Assembly: GCA_031268195.1 (NCBI GenBank)
Contig: JAIRXQ010000038.1
Location: 1 to 58,413 of the forward strand
Reading direction: 5' to 3'
Source of the DNA: Azoarcus sp.
GTDB taxonomy: Bacteria > Pseudomonadota > Gammaproteobacteria > Burkholderiales > Rhodocyclaceae
DNA: 58,413 nucleotides
Shown: piece by piece, positions 26,929 through 33,447 of the stretch
Numbering within the stretch: the stretch's first letter is position 1
Layout: each line of letters begins with the position of its first letter
Notes under the pieces: model-generated
Seen by the model: only the letters and a program-made list of their open reading frames with translations
What the model was told of the DNA's origin: nothing
Database searches by the model: none
Position numbers and translations under genes: made by a program

Positions 26929-27273
26929 ATGACCCGCATCGTCGTTTTGCCCCATGCCGAAATTTGTCCGCAAGGGGCGGTCGTCGACGCCGCGCCGGGG
27001 GCGTCGCTCTGCGACGCGCTGCTCGCGGGCGGCATCGAGATCGAACACGCCTGTGAACAATCCTGCGCCTGCACGACCTGTCACGTCATCGTGCGCGAAG
27101 GACTCGACTCCCTGCCCGAGGCCAGCGAAGACGAGGAAGATTTGCTCGACCGCGCCTGGGGACTCACGCCGCGCTCGCGGCTGTCGTGCCAGGCCATCAT
27201 CGGGGAGACGGATCTCGTGGTGGAAATTCCACGCTACACGATCAACCTTGTGCGTGAGGAGAAACACGGATGA
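26929..27273 (+). CDS. fdx: Isc-type [2Fe-2S] ferredoxin
   Basis: A 114-residue adrenodoxin-like ferredoxin. The cluster ligands lie in HACEQSCACTTCHVIV (first, third and fourth Cys of that run; C-x5-C-x2-C) with the fourth ligand in SRLSCQAI. It supplies electrons for sulfur reduction during cluster assembly. Starts at the hscA stop (TGAATG) and overlaps iscX by ATGA. Confidence 0.95.
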   Translation: MTRIVVLPHAEICPQGAVVDAAPGASLCDALLAGGIEIEHACEQSCACTTCHVIVREGLDSLPEASEDEEDLLDRAWGLTPRSRLSCQAIIGETDLVVEIPRYTINLVREEKHG

Positions 27274-27464
27274 AATGGACCGACGTTGCCGAGATCGCCA
27301 TTCAGTTGGCCGACGCCCGACCGAACATTGATCCGGCGCAGCTGAATTTCGTCGACCTGATGGCCTGGGTGCAGGCGCTGCCCGGTTTCGACGACGATCC
27401 CGCCCACTGCGGCGAGCGCGTGCTGGAAGCGATCCAGCAAGCATGGATCGACGAAACCGCCTGA
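27270..27464 (+). CDS. iscX: Fe-S assembly regulator IscX
   Basis: A 64-residue acidic protein. MKWTDVAEIA, DPAQLNFVDL and the C-terminal ERVLEAIQQAWIDE are the IscX (YfhJ) signatures. It binds IscS and iron and tunes desulfurase activity. Last recognisable gene of the isc operon. The dyad at 27486-27517 follows 21 bases after the stop. Confidence 0.94.
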   Translation: MKWTDVAEIAIQLADARPNIDPAQLNFVDLMAWVQALPGFDDDPAHCGERVLEAIQQAWIDETA

Positions 27465-27481
27465 TTTTCGCGCCTTGCGAC

Positions 27482-27517
27482 TTGCACGGGATACTGTAAA
27501 AGATTACAGTATCCCGT
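27482..27517 (+). promoter_or_regulatory. Promoter with a near-ideal LexA (SOS) box
   Basis: TACTGT-N8-ACAGTA (27492-27511) contains the CTGT-N8-ACAG core used by LexA of gamma- and betaproteobacteria. It is the centre of a 14-bp perfect inverted repeat (27486-27499 and 27504-27517, four-base loop). A -35 TTGCAC (27482-27487) and -10 TACAGT (27505-27510) are exactly 17 bp apart, so bound LexA would occlude the promoter. There is no U-run after the dyad, so a terminator is the less likely reading. Confidence 0.72.
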
Positions 27518-27541
27518 ATCGTCCATTCGCGGAGTTTTGCC

Positions 27542-27682
27542 ATGAAAGCCAGAGTCGATTATCTGCTGGTTTCGCTCGGCCTGCTGGCCGGTCTGTCCCT
27601 GGGGGCCGGTCAGTTCGGCGGCGCCATCGTCCTCGCGGTCGCGGCGGTGGGCGGGGCGAAGCTGTGGCGCGAGTGCTTTTGA
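27542..27682 (+). CDS. Putative SOS-inducible 46-aa membrane peptide
   Basis: A 46-codon frame beginning MKARVDYLLV and ending GGAKLWRECF. Residues about 7-38 are almost entirely Leu, Val, Ala, Gly and Ile, enough for one long or two short membrane helices, with basic residues at both ends. GGAG lies seven bases before the ATG, and the predicted transcript begins about 25 bases upstream from the LexA-box promoter. I do not recognise the family. The size, hydrophobicity and SOS control recall TisB-type toxins and SidA-type division inhibitors, but function is inference only. It is read in the same direction as the isc operon. Confidence 0.6.
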   Translation: MKARVDYLLVSLGLLAGLSLGAGQFGGAIVLAVAAVGGAKLWRECF

Positions 27683-27869
27683 AAACGCCCCTTCCAAAAC
27701 ACGTTGGACCGGCAGGCCCGAAGGCCCGTCGCTAATTTCTTGCTGATATTAAATATTTTCCTGCCGCCGTCCTAAAACGACGGCGTTCGCGATTGTCGAT
27801 GAGTCCCACGCATGACCGTGCGGGCCCTTTCAGCTACAATCCACGATCCACAATCTACCTAAAGAACAG

Positions 27870-27942
27870 GCCCTTGTAGCTCAGCCGGTAGAGCAGCGGT
27901 TTTGTAAACCGAAGGTCGCGGGTTCGATTCCTGCCGGGGGCA
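27870..27942 (+). tRNA. tRNA-Thr (anticodon TGT)
   Basis: A complete cloverleaf. The acceptor stem is GCCCTTG/CGGGGGC with two G-U pairs, the D-arm GCTC-AGCCGGTA-GAGC, the anticodon loop TTTGTAA (TGT) and the T-arm GCGGG-TTCGATT-CCTGC. Discriminator A27942. The 3' CCA is not encoded (CCG follows). A -10-like TACAAT is at 27835-27840. The 187-base gap before it also holds a hairpin, CGCCGTC/GACGGCG, at about 27764-27786. A weak GACAAA/TTTGTC inverted repeat (27955-27971) follows the tRNA. Confidence 0.95.
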
Positions 27943-28015
27943 CCGTATTCCATAGACAAACCGACTTTGTCGAATCTGCCATCCATCATTATCGGACGAA
28001 TATTATTTATACGGC

Positions 28016-28957
28016 ATGAAAAACGTCCTCGTCGTTTCCTATTCGCAAAGCGGGCAACTGGCCGGTATCGTCGATGTGATGACGCAGCCGCTCAGGGAGG
28101 CGGGCGTCAGTGTCCACCACGAGATGTTGCGCCCCGAGCCGGAATTCCCGTTTCCCTGGCCGTTTTTGGGTTTCCTCGACGCTTTCCCGGAATCCGTGCG
28201 CCTCGACCCAAGGCCCAATCGCCCCTTGTCCGTGCCGTCCGGGGCCGAGTTCGATCTGGTGATTCTTGCCTGGACGGTCTGGTATCTGTCGCCCTCGCAA
28301 CCCGTGACCGCCTTCTTGCTCAGCGAGGAAGGCAAGCGTCTGCTGGCGGGCAAGCCCGTGGTGAGTGTGGTGGCGTGTCGCAATATGTGGCTGGGCGCCT
28401 TCGATACGGTGAAAACGCTCGTGACGCAGGGGGGTGGGCGGCTGGTGGATCATGTGGCACTGATCGACGACGGGCCGGCGCTGGCGACTTTCATCACCAC
28501 GCCGCGCTGGATGTTCACCGGGCGGCGCGACGCTTTTCTCGGCCTGCCTCCGGCCGGGGTAAATGCGCGGCACCGCGCGGACGCGGCGCGTTTCGGCGTG
28601 GCGTTGGCCGAGGCGCTGGCGCGGGACGGTGAAAAGACGGGCGTGCCGATGCTCACGGGCTTGCGGGCGGTGAAGGTCACCCCGCATCTGCTGCTCTCCG
28701 AGCGCGCCGGACGGCGGGCGTTCCGGGTGTGGTCGGGGTTCGTGCGCCTGTTCGGGCGTGCGGGACAATGGCGGCGCGCGCCCGTGCTGTTGCTCTTTCT
28801 GCTCTATCTTGTTGTCATGATCCTTACTGTCGTGCCGCTGAACCTCGCCCTGCAACGGCTGGCCGCGCCGCTTCTCGCACGGCGGCTGGCGGCGCGGGCG
28901 CGGCAATACGAACTTCCTTCGGGCGCAGATGGCGCACGGATGGCCGCCCATGAGTAA
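28016..28957 (+). CDS. DarA-like flavodoxin-fold protein of dialkylresorcinol-type loci
   Basis: A 313-residue protein. KNVLVVSYSQSGQLAGIVD is a flavodoxin-like start with an FMN-phosphate loop (SYSQSGQL). The central part resembles NAD(P)H/flavin reductases (LVILAWTVWYLSPSQP). A C-terminal hydrophobic helix (about residues 262-285) would attach it to the membrane. Proteins of this layout are annotated as DarA, the partner of the ketosynthase DarB in dialkylresorcinol and flexirubin clusters; a role in ring condensation or aromatisation is inferred. No clear ribosome binding site precedes the ATG. It overlaps the next gene by eight bases. Confidence 0.7.
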   Translation: MKNVLVVSYSQSGQLAGIVDVMTQPLREAGVSVHHEMLRPEPEFPFPWPFLGFLDAFPESVRLDPRPNRPLSVPSGAEFDLVILAWTVWYLSPSQPVTAFLLSEEGKRLLAGKPVVSVVACRNMWLGAFDTVKTLVTQGGGRLVDHVALIDDGPALATFITTPRWMFTGRRDAFLGLPPAGVNARHRADAARFGVALAEALARDGEKTGVPMLTGLRAVKVTPHLLLSERAGRRAFRVWSGFVRLFGRAGQWRRAPVLLLFLLYLVVMILTVVPLNLALQRLAAPLLARRLAARARQYELPSGADGARMAAHE

Positions 28958-30095
28958 GGTGTTCATCACCGCCACGGCGGCGGCGCTGCCCAACGCGCCG
29001 ATTGGCAACGAGGCTGTCGAGGGCGTGCTCGGCATGATCGGCGGACAGCCTTCGCGGGCGCGGCGCATCGTGCTGCGGCAAAACGGCATCAAAAGCCGCC
29101 ATTACGCCATCGACCCGGCCACGGGCAAGCTGACGCATTCCAACGCCAGCCTCACCGCCACGGCCGTGCGCGGGCTAAAAGAAGCGGGTTTCGACCTCGA
29201 TACGCTGCGCTGTCTGGTGACGGGCACCTCGATACCCGACCAGATCATGCCCAATCACGGCGTCATGGTGCACGGCGAGCTCGGCAATCCACCCTGCGAG
29301 GTGGTATCGACGGCAGGTATCTGCCTGTCCGGGCTGACGGCGCTCAAGTATGCGTGGCTCGCGGTAGGCTCCGGCGATGCCGCCAACGCGGTCGCCGCCG
29401 GCTCCGAAATGCCATCGGCCGTTTTGCGCGCCGGGCATTTCGCCGACGAGTCCGCCGATGTCTCCGAGGCGTTGGAGTTGCGGCCCTGGCTCGCTTTCGA
29501 GAAAGATTTTTTGCGCTGGATGCTCTCCGATGGCGCGGGCGCCTTCCTCGTGGAGCCACAGCCGCGCGCGGGCCGGGTGAATCTGTGCATCGACTGGATC
29601 GACCTGTCCTCCGCCGCGAATCGCCTGCCGGTGTGCATGTACTCGGGCGGCGAGCGTGACGCAGGCGGCGAACTCATCGGCTGGGCGCGCTTCTCGTCCC
29701 GGCAATGGGCGGAAAAATCGATTTTCGCCATCAAGCAAGATGTGAAACTGCTCGATCGCAGCGTGATCGAAGCCACGCTGGAGACGCCCCTGCGCGAGAC
29801 TGTCGCGCGGCGCGGCCTGACGGTGGCGGACATCGACTGGTTCTTGCCGCACATGTCTTCGTACTACTTCCGCCAGCCCATCGCCGATGCGCTGGTGCGC
29901 GCGGGGCTGCCCATCCCGTTCGAGCGCTGGTTTACCAACCTGGCGACGTGTGGCAACACGGGCTCGGCCTCGATCTACATCATGCTCGATGAACTCGTGC
30001 GCTCCGGGAAGCTCGCAGCGGGGCAACGGTTGCTGTGCTTCGTGCCGGAGAGCGGACGTTTTTCCAGCGGCTTCATGCATCTGACGGTGGTGTGA
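28950..30095 (+). CDS. DarB-like 3-oxoacyl-ACP synthase III (resorcinol-forming ketosynthase)
   Basis: A 381-residue thiolase-fold enzyme. The KAS III triad is present as Cys125 (STAGICLSG), His301 (WFLPHMSSYYF) and Asn336 (TCGNTGSAS). It lacks the usual acetyl-CoA-type FabH context. Together with the upstream flavodoxin it matches DarB enzymes, which join two fatty-acid-derived units head to head to give cyclohexanedione/resorcinol lipids. Translationally coupled on both sides: eight-base overlap with the DarA-like gene and TGATG with the next. Confidence 0.75.
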   Translation: MSKVFITATAAALPNAPIGNEAVEGVLGMIGGQPSRARRIVLRQNGIKSRHYAIDPATGKLTHSNASLTATAVRGLKEAGFDLDTLRCLVTGTSIPDQIMPNHGVMVHGELGNPPCEVVSTAGICLSGLTALKYAWLAVGSGDAANAVAAGSEMPSAVLRAGHFADESADVSEALELRPWLAFEKDFLRWMLSDGAGAFLVEPQPRAGRVNLCIDWIDLSSAANRLPVCMYSGGERDAGGELIGWARFSSRQWAEKSIFAIKQDVKLLDRSVIEATLETPLRETVARRGLTVADIDWFLPHMSSYYFRQPIADALVRAGLPIPFERWFTNLATCGNTGSASIYIMLDELVRSGKLAAGQRLLCFVPESGRFSSGFMHLTVV

Positions 30096-30490
30096 TGGAC
30101 GTCGCCGACGTGCCGCAAGAAGGCAACGCTACGCATGTGGGACAGCACCGGCGCGTTTATGCGCGCGGTTCGGATGGACGGCTCGGACTCGTGGCCTCGC
30201 GTGGCTGGGAGGTGGAGGAGATCGTCACGTTGCAGGCGACGAAGGCATTCGACGATCTAGCCGAGGCGGCGCGCGCCCGGGGGCGGGCGGGGAGCGCCGC
30301 GCCGCTCGAATTTCATATGTACCGCGCGCGCATGGACGAAGCGCTGCTTGCGCAAGCCGTGGGGCTGTGGCGCTGGCGGGTGCATCGTCACCTGCGCCCG
30401 GAGGTGTTCGCGCGCCTCTCCCCGGCGCTGCGTGCGCGTTATGCGGCGGCCCTCGGCATCGATGTGGCGTGCCTGGAGACGGTCGATTGA
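30095..30490 (+). CDS. Small protein of unknown function in the resorcinol-type locus
   Basis: A 131-residue protein I do not recognise. The N-terminal half looks like beta strands (RRVYARGSDGRLGLVASRGWEVEEI). The C-terminal half is helical and Arg-rich (LWRWRVHRHLRPEVFARLSPALRARYAAALGI). There is no signal peptide or membrane segment. Its ATG overlaps the DarB stop and the BtrH-type gene starts two bases after its own stop, so it is made with them. Its placement between ketosynthase and acyltransferase suggests an accessory or partner protein. Confidence 0.65.
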   Translation: MDVADVPQEGNATHVGQHRRVYARGSDGRLGLVASRGWEVEEIVTLQATKAFDDLAEAARARGRAGSAAPLEFHMYRARMDEALLAQAVGLWRWRVHRHLRPEVFARLSPALRARYAAALGIDVACLETVD

Positions 30491-30492
30491 CG

Positions 30493-31494
30493 ATGGCGAC
30501 AGGTTTCGTTCACCAGCAGGCTTCCCATTGCGAAAGTGGGGTGATGAGCGCCATCGTGCGTCACTACGGCTTGCCACTCTCGGAGGCGGCGGCTTTCGGG
30601 CTGGCCTCGGCGCTCACTTTCGCCTACATCCCGTTCATCAAGTTTTACGGGCTGCCGCTGGTGTCGTACCGCATGCCGCCGCGCGCCATCATGCGCGGGT
30701 TGCAGAAGCCGCTCGGCTTCAAGATGCACGCGGAAACCTTTCGCACCCCGGAAGCGGGCGCGGCGCGCCTGAACGAGCTGCTCGCCGCCGGGCGGCTGGT
30801 CGGGTTGCAGGTGTCGGTGTTCTGGCTACCGTTCATGCCGCCGGATTTCCGCTTCCATTTCAACGCTCACAACCTGCTCGTCTACGGACGCGATGAGGCA
30901 AGCGGCGACTACCTGCTCTCCGACCCGGTGCTGGAAGCGCCTGTGCGTTGTGCCCCGGCGGACTTGGCGAAGGCGCGTTTCGCACGCGGTGCGCTCGCGC
31001 CCAAGGGACTGCTCTACTACCCGGCCGGGGTGCCGCGGGAGCCGGACTGGAAACAGGCGCTGCCCGCCGCAGTCAAAAAGACGGCGCGCATCATGCTGCG
31101 CACCCCGATTCCGCTCGTTGGCGTGCGGGGTATCGAACGTCTGGCGCGTGCCATCGAACGCCTGCCCGTGGCCACCGATCCGGACAGAACCAGACAGTTC
31201 ATTGGACACATCGTCCGCATGCAGGAAGAAATCGGCACCGGCGGCGGCGGGTTTCGCTACATGTATGCAGCTTTCCTCGAAGAAGCCGCGCCGCTCGCGG
31301 GGCGTCCCGCGCTTGCCGATCTGGGGGCGGAACTGGTTGAAATTGGCGATCGCTGGCGTGAATTCGCGCTTGCCACCGCGCGCATGATCCGCGCGCGTGA
31401 CCCGCTCGATCCGGCGCGCCTCGCGGCCCTGCTGCGCGAGCAGGCCGGGCGCGAAAAGGCGTTCTTCATGGCGCTGGACAAGGCCGGGCGTTGA
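30493..31494 (+). CDS. BtrH N-terminal-domain protein (cysteine acyltransferase-like)
   Basis: A 333-residue protein. FVHQQASHCESGVMSAIVRHYG (residues 5-26) is the BtrH_N signature, with putative nucleophile Cys13 next to His12 and the pattern F-x-H-x(4)-HC-x-x-G. RFHFNAHNLLVYGRDE and YLLSDPVLEAP fit the papain-like fold expected of this family; a DUF4872-like helical C-terminus follows. BtrH in butirosin synthesis transfers an acyl group from an ACP to an acceptor, so an ACP-dependent acyl transfer is plausible here, with the ACP encoded four genes downstream. Substrate unknown. Confidence 0.72.
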   Translation: MATGFVHQQASHCESGVMSAIVRHYGLPLSEAAAFGLASALTFAYIPFIKFYGLPLVSYRMPPRAIMRGLQKPLGFKMHAETFRTPEAGAARLNELLAAGRLVGLQVSVFWLPFMPPDFRFHFNAHNLLVYGRDEASGDYLLSDPVLEAPVRCAPADLAKARFARGALAPKGLLYYPAGVPREPDWKQALPAAVKKTARIMLRTPIPLVGVRGIERLARAIERLPVATDPDRTRQFIGHIVRMQEEIGTGGGGFRYMYAAFLEEAAPLAGRPALADLGAELVEIGDRWREFALATARMIRARDPLDPARLAALLREQAGREKAFFMALDKAGR

Positions 31495-31504
31495 AGGAGG
31501 CGCG

Positions 31505-32233
31505 ATGATCCGCGTCGAAACCCTGCGCTATCGCTACCGCCCGGATGCCCCTCCCGCGCTCGACGGGGCGACGCTCACCATCGGGCGCGGCCTCGTCTAC
31601 GGGCTGCTCGGCCCCAACGGGGCAGGCAAGACGACGCTCATTTCGCTCCTGGCCGGGCGGCTCAAGTTGCAGGAAGGCGGCATTCGCATCGATGAAGCGC
31701 CGCTTGCCGGCTGGCGCGCGGCGCATCCTAATGCACTGGCGCTCGTGCCGCAGGATTACGCCTTTTACCCGATGCTCACCGTGACCGAAAACCTCGATTT
31801 CTTCGCTGGCGTGCAAGGCGTGCCGCGCGTGCGACGGCGGGAAAACTGTGAATGCGCCATCGCCTTCGCGCGGCTGGAGGCGGTGGCCGCACGCCGTGCG
31901 GGCGAACTCTCCGGCGGGCTGCGCCGTCGCCTCAACCTGGCGATCGGGCTGACCGGCGCGCCAGATATTTTGCTGCTCGACGAACCGACGGCGGGCGTCG
32001 ATCCGCAATCGCGTCACTTCATGCTGGAGTCGGTCGCGCGCTTTGCCGCAGGCGGCGGCACGGTGCTCTACACCAGCCACCACATGGATGAAGTGGAAGC
32101 CGTGTGTGGAGAAGTCGCCATCGTCGATCACGGCAAACTCATCGCCGCTGGCACCTTGCAGGAAGTGCGGGGCGATGCGGCGAATCTTGAGGATGTTTTC
32201 ATGCGCCTCACGCACCATTCGCTGCGGGATTGA
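31505..32233 (+). CDS. ABC transporter ATP-binding protein
   Basis: A 242-residue ATPase. Walker A GPNGAGKTT (about residues 39-47), signature LSGGLRRRLNLAIGL, Walker B ILLLDEPTAGVDPQ and the switch His in YTSHHMDE are all intact. It belongs to the ABC-2 exporter type (CcmA/NatA-like). GGAGG precedes the ATG. Paired with the overlapping permease gene, it probably exports the lipid product of the locus, which is an inference from context. Confidence 0.92.
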   Translation: MIRVETLRYRYRPDAPPALDGATLTIGRGLVYGLLGPNGAGKTTLISLLAGRLKLQEGGIRIDEAPLAGWRAAHPNALALVPQDYAFYPMLTVTENLDFFAGVQGVPRVRRRENCECAIAFARLEAVAARRAGELSGGLRRRLNLAIGLTGAPDILLLDEPTAGVDPQSRHFMLESVARFAAGGGTVLYTSHHMDEVEAVCGEVAIVDHGKLIAAGTLQEVRGDAANLEDVFMRLTHHSLRD

Positions 32234-33447
32234 ACGGCGTGAAGAGCACATTCGTCCGCCTCACGGCATTGTGGAAGAAAGAACTGCTCGCGCTCGGCCG
32301 CGACCGGCTCGGGCTTGCGGCGCTGTTCTTGATGCCCGTGATCTTCATCCTCGTCATGTCGCTCGCGCTCGCGGATTCGCTCTCCGGGCAACACGAGGCC
32401 CGCGTCGCTTTCGCGGTGCTCGATCTCGACGGCTCGCCGCCCGCGAAGCTGCTCGACGAGCGCCTCGTTGCGAGTGAGGTGCTTGCCCGCCACGAGGCGC
32501 CCGCCGACGAGGGGCAGGCGCGCCGCCGGGTAGAGGCGCGCGAGCTTGCTTTCGTCGTGGTGATTCCCGCCGGTTTCGGCGCGCAGATCGGCGCCAATCA
32601 CGCGCCGACGCTACGTTTTTTGCTTGATCCCGCCGTGCCGGGGATGTTGCGCGAAGGCTTCCGGCAGCACGTGGAAGTAGCGGCAACCCGTGTCTGGCTG
32701 GAATACGCACTGGAGCGGCTCGGGAGCGCCATGATGCTGCCGCAGCTGCGCCACGCGACGCAGCACGTCGGCCCGCCCGCCATCGCGCTCGAAGCCGTGG
32801 GAGGCGCGGTCACGCTGCCTTCGGCCGTGCAGCAGAACGTGCCCGCATGGTTGATTTTCTCGATGTTTTTCGTGGTCGTGCCGATTTCAGCAGTGTTCAT
32901 CGGCGAGCGTCAGCACGGCACCTTGCAGCGGCTGGCGACGCAACGTGTGCCTTTCGGCCTCGTGCTGGCGGGCAAGTTTGTGCCCTTTGTGCTTGTCAAC
33001 CAGTTACAGGCGCTGGCAATGGTCGCGGTTGGACGCTGGGGGGTGCCGCTTTTCGGCGGCGAGGCGCTCGTCATGCCAAGCGGCGCCTGGATGCTTGCGG
33101 CGTGGTGGACGGTGAGCCTTGCCGTGAGCGTCGCCGCCGTGGGGTGGGCGCTTCTCCTCGCCAGCCTTGCGCGCAGCAGCGAGCAGGCGACGGTGTTCGG
33201 CGGCGTCGGCAACATCCTGATGGGCGTGGTGGGCGGCGTCATGGTGCCACGCTTCGTGATGCCCGCCGCGATGCAACCCTGGACGCGGCTCTCGCCGATG
33301 GACTGGGCGCTCCAGGGCTTTCATGACGTGATGTTGCGTCACGGCGGCATGGCGGACATCCTGCCCGCCGCCGGCGCGCTGCTATGCTTCGGACTGGCCG
33401 CGCTCGCCGTGGCTGCCCTCCTCGAGCACCGTACGAGCTTGCCATGA
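32230..33447 (+). CDS. ABC-2 type transporter permease
   Basis: About 405 residues with an N-terminal membrane helix (LAALFLMPVIFILVMSLALAD). A large extracytoplasmic loop of about 180 residues follows, then five C-terminal helices from residue 218, with the ERQHGTLQRL motif after the second helix as in ABC-2 permeases. It ends four bases into the ACP gene. The start is uncertain: TTG at 32230 overlaps the ATPase stop, while GTG at 32239 has GCGGGA nine bases upstream. Confidence 0.87.
   Translation: MNGVKSTFVRLTALWKKELLALGRDRLGLAALFLMPVIFILVMSLALADSLSGQHEARVAFAVLDLDGSPPAKLLDERLVASEVLARHEAPADEGQARRRVEARELAFVVVIPAGFGAQIGANHAPTLRFLLDPAVPGMLREGFRQHVEVAATRVWLEYALERLGSAMMLPQLRHATQHVGPPAIALEAVGGAVTLPSAVQQNVPAWLIFSMFFVVVPISAVFIGERQHGTLQRLATQRVPFGLVLAGKFVPFVLVNQLQALAMVAVGRWGVPLFGGEALVMPSGAWMLAAWWTVSLAVSVAAVGWALLLASLARSSEQATVFGGVGNILMGVVGGVMVPRFVMPAAMQPWTRLSPMDWALQGFHDVMLRHGGMADILPAAGALLCFGLAALAVAALLEHRTSLP

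Follow-up and report, generated by a model that had tools for sequence, protein, structure and literature searches.

The 46-codon hydrophobic frame behind iscX in the window, i.e., the whole stretch of 58,413 nucleotides from Azoarcus sp. that was analysed, belongs, on sequence grounds, to a new family within a known class, i.e., that of small SOS-type, probably membrane-bound peptides. Comparison with its homologues gives good support that the gene is real, selected and placed under a conserved LexA-type box. Peptide and box are conserved together in relatives, and the sequence family they define is present in 49/297 sampled genomes of a single taxonomic family. Most knowledge of SOS regulons stems from a few model bacteria, and annotation easily misses small SOS peptides.

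Direct reading recovered the hexamers, the box, the GGAG motif and the 46-codon frame of the original prediction (Table 1). The -35-like and -10-like hexamers are spaced by 17 bp and the predicted mRNA leader spans about 25 nt in the window (both by direct reading). Both hexamers are weak, and the peptide promoter is absent from the list of the consensus promoter scan. The palindrome around the box is longer than had been predicted, i.e., its arms comprise 13 bp each (27487-27499 and 27504-27516; CGGGATACTGTAA / TTACAGTATCCCG) around an AAGA centre. A TTGC element 5' of the box recurs in many homologous loci (by eye).

Table 1. Features of the peptide locus in the window
Feature	Position	Strand	Basis and remarks
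iscX	27270-27464		PF04384, E 3e-30
-35-like hexamer TTGCAC	27482-27487	+	direct reading; weak, 3/6 vs TTGACA
Perfect 30-bp inverted repeat enclosing the LexA-type box	27487-27516		direct reading
TACTGT-N8-ACAGTA	27492-27511		direct reading
LexA-type box, core CTGTAAAAGATTACAG	27494-27509	not assigned	direct reading and boxes before homologues
-10-like hexamer TACAGT	27505-27510	+	direct reading; 4/6 vs TATAAT; overlaps right half of the box
GGAG ribosome-binding site	27531-27534	+	direct reading; ATG 7 bases on
46-aa hydrophobic glycine-zipper peptide	27542-27682	+	ATG 27542, stop TGA 27680-27682, 46 codons
tRNA-Thr(tgt)	27870-27944	+	downstream of the peptide gene, same strand

The peptide frame begins 77 bp behind iscX. 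Upstream of iscX are genes for an HSP70 (HscA-like) and a ferredoxin (Fer2), both identified by profile matches, and these are preceded by IscS/IscU/IscA-like frames (by eye). The operon is an incidental neighbour, since tRNA-Thr(tgt) is close to the peptide in 20/45 family loci outside the genus as well as in G005 and the window. That the peptide gene is part of the isc operon is ruled out by its own box, its promoter-like hexamers and the homologues located elsewhere. Within the genus, the neighbours shift stepwise (tRNA-Thr, an amidase-like gene, a Mop-like gene; by eye). The neighbour survey combined inspection by eye with a clustering that is blurred by shadow frames; it yielded no neighbour clearly pointing to division and no conserved second gene. 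A phage, plasmid or otherwise mobile origin is unsupported, i.e., the viral contig scan gave no relative and tblastn, run with one member each, gave no plasmid or phage match.

Beyond the tRNA (28016-33447), the window holds a ketoacyl-synthase-III-like gene and ABC-transporter genes (the latter by eye), perhaps a lipid or polyene pathway. Furthermore, 15 family genomes have a common frame downstream of the peptide (mean 554 aa; e.g., L153, L166) with SEIARE..PTPDN near its start, by eye possibly a diguanylate cyclase.

The window has a single CTGT-N8-ACAG core. The same pattern is also present in 20 of 100 shuffled windows (mean 0.23), which contradicts the original argument that a LexA box of such quality is rare by chance. 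The box by itself is not strong evidence of control. Homologues were collected by protein profile alone, and the 150 bp preceding each start were then searched for the box. Here, the box is present at every one of the 45 non-genus loci (36 exact CTGT-N8-ACAG, 9 with one mismatch), compared to an expected share of about 2% of upstream intervals with a site of at most one mismatch. Outside this interval, the 499,985 flank positions of all 52 loci contain a single exact box. Among the 7 loci of the genus, 2 boxes are exact, 1 has one, 2 have two and 2 have three mismatches. The latter are those of G018 and G020, where the box has drifted to GTGAATAAAATTACAC / GTGAATAGAATTACAC with the mismatches at the CTGT/ACAG letters. 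Judged from these counts, conservation takes the box far beyond chance.

The peptide itself was followed with two profiles. A first search of 60 relatives (E <= 0.1) gave 9 matching genomes. Of these, 7 belong to the window's genus, with the window's genome among them; these 7 genus members form profile A1, and profile A3 comprises 31 members. With A1, 7/21 genus genomes match at E <= 1.3e-20 and two more only weakly; A1 also matches 29/297 sampled family genomes. A3 matches 50/297 from 11 genera. One of these (G237) was rejected as a homologue, its match being inside a 602-aa frame without a box, which leaves 49 genomes from 10/68 genera with a weakest E-value of 6e-4. Among 399 genomes of the order, the clear matches are the window's genome (G000) and G070. 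Two further candidates (G644, G348) were rejected as other frames, with best sites of 2 and 3 mismatches, respectively, and weak matches inside long frames were set aside (G055, G057, G013, G014).

No match above a family cut-off or at a clear E-value was obtained in Pfam, NCBIfam, PHROGs, PADLOC or PDB sequences, in agreement with the predicted lack of resemblance to any known peptide. The best family match is NF004888, V-type ATP synthase subunit K (E 5e-5, 23 bits vs a cut-off of 101), and 8/31 members show weak matches (E <= 0.1) to this proteolipid profile. Glycine spacing is the most likely cause of such matches; two peptides scrambled by hand, a rough control, gave none. The best matches in PHROGs and PADLOC are weak (E 0.024 and 0.012, respectively). 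Among the literature matches listed, judged by title and start of the abstract and with subscription literature thinly covered, there is no paper on a peptide of Rhodocyclaceae under LexA control.

The frame is open in all 52 loci read, that is, stops do not accumulate in close homologues. Over 16 chosen close pairs, some of them sharing a genome, dN/dS is 0.06-0.33 and the differences at codon positions 1/2/3 amount to 72/36/179. From this coding-type change, we judge the frame to be under purifying selection. An SD-like motif precedes the start in 47/52 loci.

The family consists of hydrophobic glycine-zipper peptides of about 50 residues. Lengths are 46-59 aa in 48/52 loci and most members are almost without a tail, while three genus members have C-terminal extensions (80-114 aa in total). 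All 31 rows of the alignment share G13, G17 and G23 and have Gly or Ala at position 21, i.e., G13-xxx-G17-xxx-(G/A)21 forms a glycine zipper; R43 is present in 30/31 and W40 in 26/31 rows. The window's copy is the shortest of the 52 and has K in place of W at position 40. In 26/31 rows, the centre has a polar residue (H, N or Q), which could indicate a turn that joins two short helices or be embedded in a single helix. A specific partner is favoured because the residues that are kept concern the sequence and not only the composition. The mean core hydropathy is 1.6 and 35/52 cores are without a charged residue; a membrane location is predicted from this hydropathy.

The window's genome has a lexA gene (PF01726, E 8e-23; 215-aa open frame). 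Its product retains an AG site as well as the Ser and Lys regions characteristic of the self-cleaving protease, and its DNA-binding domain contains FRSPNAAE. The gene is preceded by the box CTGTATATTATTACAG, an exact match to the pattern CTGTATAWWATTACAG, from which the peptide box differs by 2 mismatches. Other lexA boxes of the genus are, e.g., CTGTATATTATTGCAG (G003), CTGTATAAAATGCCAG (G005) and CTGTATATATTTACAA (G014). Outside the genus, lexA loci were read for 20 of the 45 peptide-bearing family genomes and all 20 have a box (12 exact, 8 with one mismatch); in G150, the peptide box and the lexA box both end in ACAC. For 30 other family lexA loci, none of them counted as peptide-bearing, 26 boxes are exact, 3 have one and 1 has two mismatches. 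Two loci are peculiar: G005 has CTGTATAAAATGCCAG twice before lexA, 248 bp apart (L022:209-224, 457-472), and G006 has lexA twice, one nearly whole and one as an N-terminal piece on another contig (L018, L024), possibly due to an assembly break.

Within the genus, 11/21 genomes have a LexA match above the cut-off, of which 10 are counted as full (G017 was excluded, with an 86-aa frame at E 7e-11). The peptide occurs only together with a full-length LexA, i.e., in 7/10 such genomes vs 0/11 others (Fisher 0.001, ignoring kinship). LexA is present in G001, G004 and G014 (completeness 87, 72 and 93 percent), for which the profile search found no full-length peptide. In the whole family, 48/49 peptide-bearing genomes have a LexA match vs 218/297 overall, again ignoring kinship; the one without it, G258, has an assembly completeness of 86 percent. 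In a recA tree built from 12 genomes of the genus, the LexA-less ones stand in at least 2 places, with support below 70 at five inner nodes and two of the recA sequences being partial. The peptide and lexA are at least 185 kb apart in the 6 non-genus genomes with both on one main contig (G070, G129, G181, G234, G273, G324). In G009, they are about 8 kb apart on contig C17 (L128, L020), while they are on different contigs in the other six peptide-bearing genus genomes.

The original prediction of a LexA-controlled peptide thus gains support from a conserved box of the type found before lexA. The palindrome might instead serve another regulator, or frame and box might coincide by chance. Such a view could draw on the shuffled windows that contain the core, on the drifting box letters in the genus and on the promoter unlisted by the scan. 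We consider it highly improbable, given that the same box type stands before lexA in the peptide-bearing genomes read, that the peptide tracks LexA presence, that 45/45 family loci have at most one mismatch where about 2% are expected for each, and that the substitutions are of the coding type. A chance box, which the shuffles alone would permit, is excluded by the conservation together with the shared box type.

We propose, with middling confidence, that the locus is a one-gene SOS unit whose peptide acts as a partner-binding brake on division. Here, LexA bound to the palindrome that overlaps the -10 element would hold the gene off. RecA on single-stranded DNA would lead to LexA self-cleavage, and the short mRNA would then provide the roughly 50-residue peptide, which would enter the inner membrane. 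Its G13-xxx-G17-xxx-(G/A)21 face would pack on a partner in the membrane, for which a late division protein is the likeliest candidate. In this SidA-like checkpoint, cell division would be paused and would resume only after repair of the damage and the return of LexA. LexA binding, induction by DNA damage and membrane insertion are predicted from the sequence features above; the zipper partner and the division pause are suggested with less certainty. What inclines us towards a division brake is that the predicted leader is short and the zipper conserved. Against this reading, nothing in the neighbour survey ties the peptide directly to division, and glycine zippers are also found in oligomerising and pore-forming peptides. 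Further points against the proposal as a whole are the weak promoter hexamers, the drifted boxes of G018 and G020, the LexA-bearing G001, G004 and G014 in which no full-length peptide was found, and the short window copy with K at position 40.

It is possible, if on the unlikely side, that the peptide is instead a LexA-controlled membrane toxin similar to TisB or DinQ, which would depolarise the inner membrane, lower ATP and lead to a tolerant dormant cell. Its size, hydrophobicity and LexA-type control fit this role, as do the weak proteolipid-profile matches of some members. The short predicted leader speaks against it, and so do the lack of a conserved second gene in the neighbour survey and the weak PHROGs and PADLOC matches. 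Most cores are uncharged, whereas TisB is described as amphiphilic and net positive (PMC8309996). The scan listed no minus-strand promoter-like site in 27260-28020, which means little given that it also missed the gene's own promoter.

We regard it as unlikely that the peptide, instead of being a toxin or a division inhibitor, serves as an SOS-induced membrane adaptor, e.g., one that regulates a respiratory, transport or proteolysis complex while repair proceeds. The conserved Gly, W and R positions would suit a generic adaptor and no neighbour clearly points to division; the LexA-controlled small membrane peptides described in the cited literature, on the other hand, act on division or on membrane potential.

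The extent of LexA control within the genus was also considered. A search of the window's genome with CTGTATAWWATTACAG (at most 3 mismatches) found lexA with 0 and the peptide with 2 mismatches as well as 6 hits with 3, while the reversed control gave 11 in total; note that CTGTATAWWATTACAG was chosen after seeing the lexA and peptide boxes and favours both. Searches for further boxes at the same tolerance gave totals near those of the reversed-pattern control. The recA gene of the window's genome is without a LexA-type box (L052; scanned up to 400 bp upstream). Likewise, 8/11 genus recA loci, including that of the window's genome, have no site of at most 2 mismatches with an AT-rich core up to 400 bp upstream. 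Of the others, G003 and G006 show a single 2-mismatch site each, while two sites are present in G007, a genome without LexA. A boxed lexA together with an unboxed recA, as in the window's genome, is an unusual SOS layout; for alpha- and beta-proteobacteria, the core SOS genes are given as lexA, recA, dinB and/or polB, uvrA and imuA-imuB-dnaE2 (PMC3323433). A tentative reading is that the SOS response of the genus has shrunk, with LexA governing little beyond itself and the peptide, and that the peptide is the core effector, which is lost along with LexA. If true, what a shrinking SOS response retains to the last would be a cell-cycle or membrane brake rather than DNA repair. As a separate observation, G018 and G020 (L107, L108) have the box-like CCGTATAAAATCACAC and CTGTATAAAGTCACAC at the same distance before an opposite-strand response-regulator-like gene (by eye).

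The peptide may help cells to pause during DNA repair. Its link to LexA, including its absence where no full LexA was found in a genus of small genomes, provides a natural experiment on the purpose of the SOS response.

Finally, we compared the peptide with known systems. One comparison concerns hypA and hypB of Betaproteobacteria, described as predicted LexA-regulated hypothetical proteins in a study that names Burkholderiaceae and Comamonadaceae as its beta-proteobacterial families (PMC3323433). Like the peptide, they are predicted new LexA targets. They differ in that hypA is reported to be without homologues outside multi-chromosome beta-proteobacteria and hypB to be exclusive to Burkholderia (PMC3323433).

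SosA, YneA, ChiZ and DivS of Gram-positive bacteria are described as SOS-induced small membrane division inhibitors with one TM helix and an extracellular C-terminal part, their genes being commonly beside lexA (PMC6851548). Judged by its LexA-type box and hydropathy, the peptide may likewise be a small SOS-type membrane protein. In contrast, most of its members are almost tailless, and lexA is far away in the six non-genus genomes given above.

TisB (29 aa) and DinQ (27 aa) of Escherichia coli are reported as LexA-controlled hydrophobic inner-membrane peptides, where tisB and dinQ have antisense RNA antitoxins and processed mRNAs (PMC8309996, PMC3567139). A hydrophobic peptide with LexA-type control is common to both systems; here, in contrast, the predicted leader is short and the promoter scan, a weak test, lists no antisense promoter-like site.

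SidA of Caulobacter crescentus is described as an SOS-induced inner-membrane peptide of 29 aa that binds FtsW (PMC4211646). It belongs to another bacterial class, it is shorter than the roughly 50 residues observed here, and it was compared by description. The two would be alike in being small SOS-type inner-membrane peptides, for which the LexA-type box and the predicted membrane location speak in our case.
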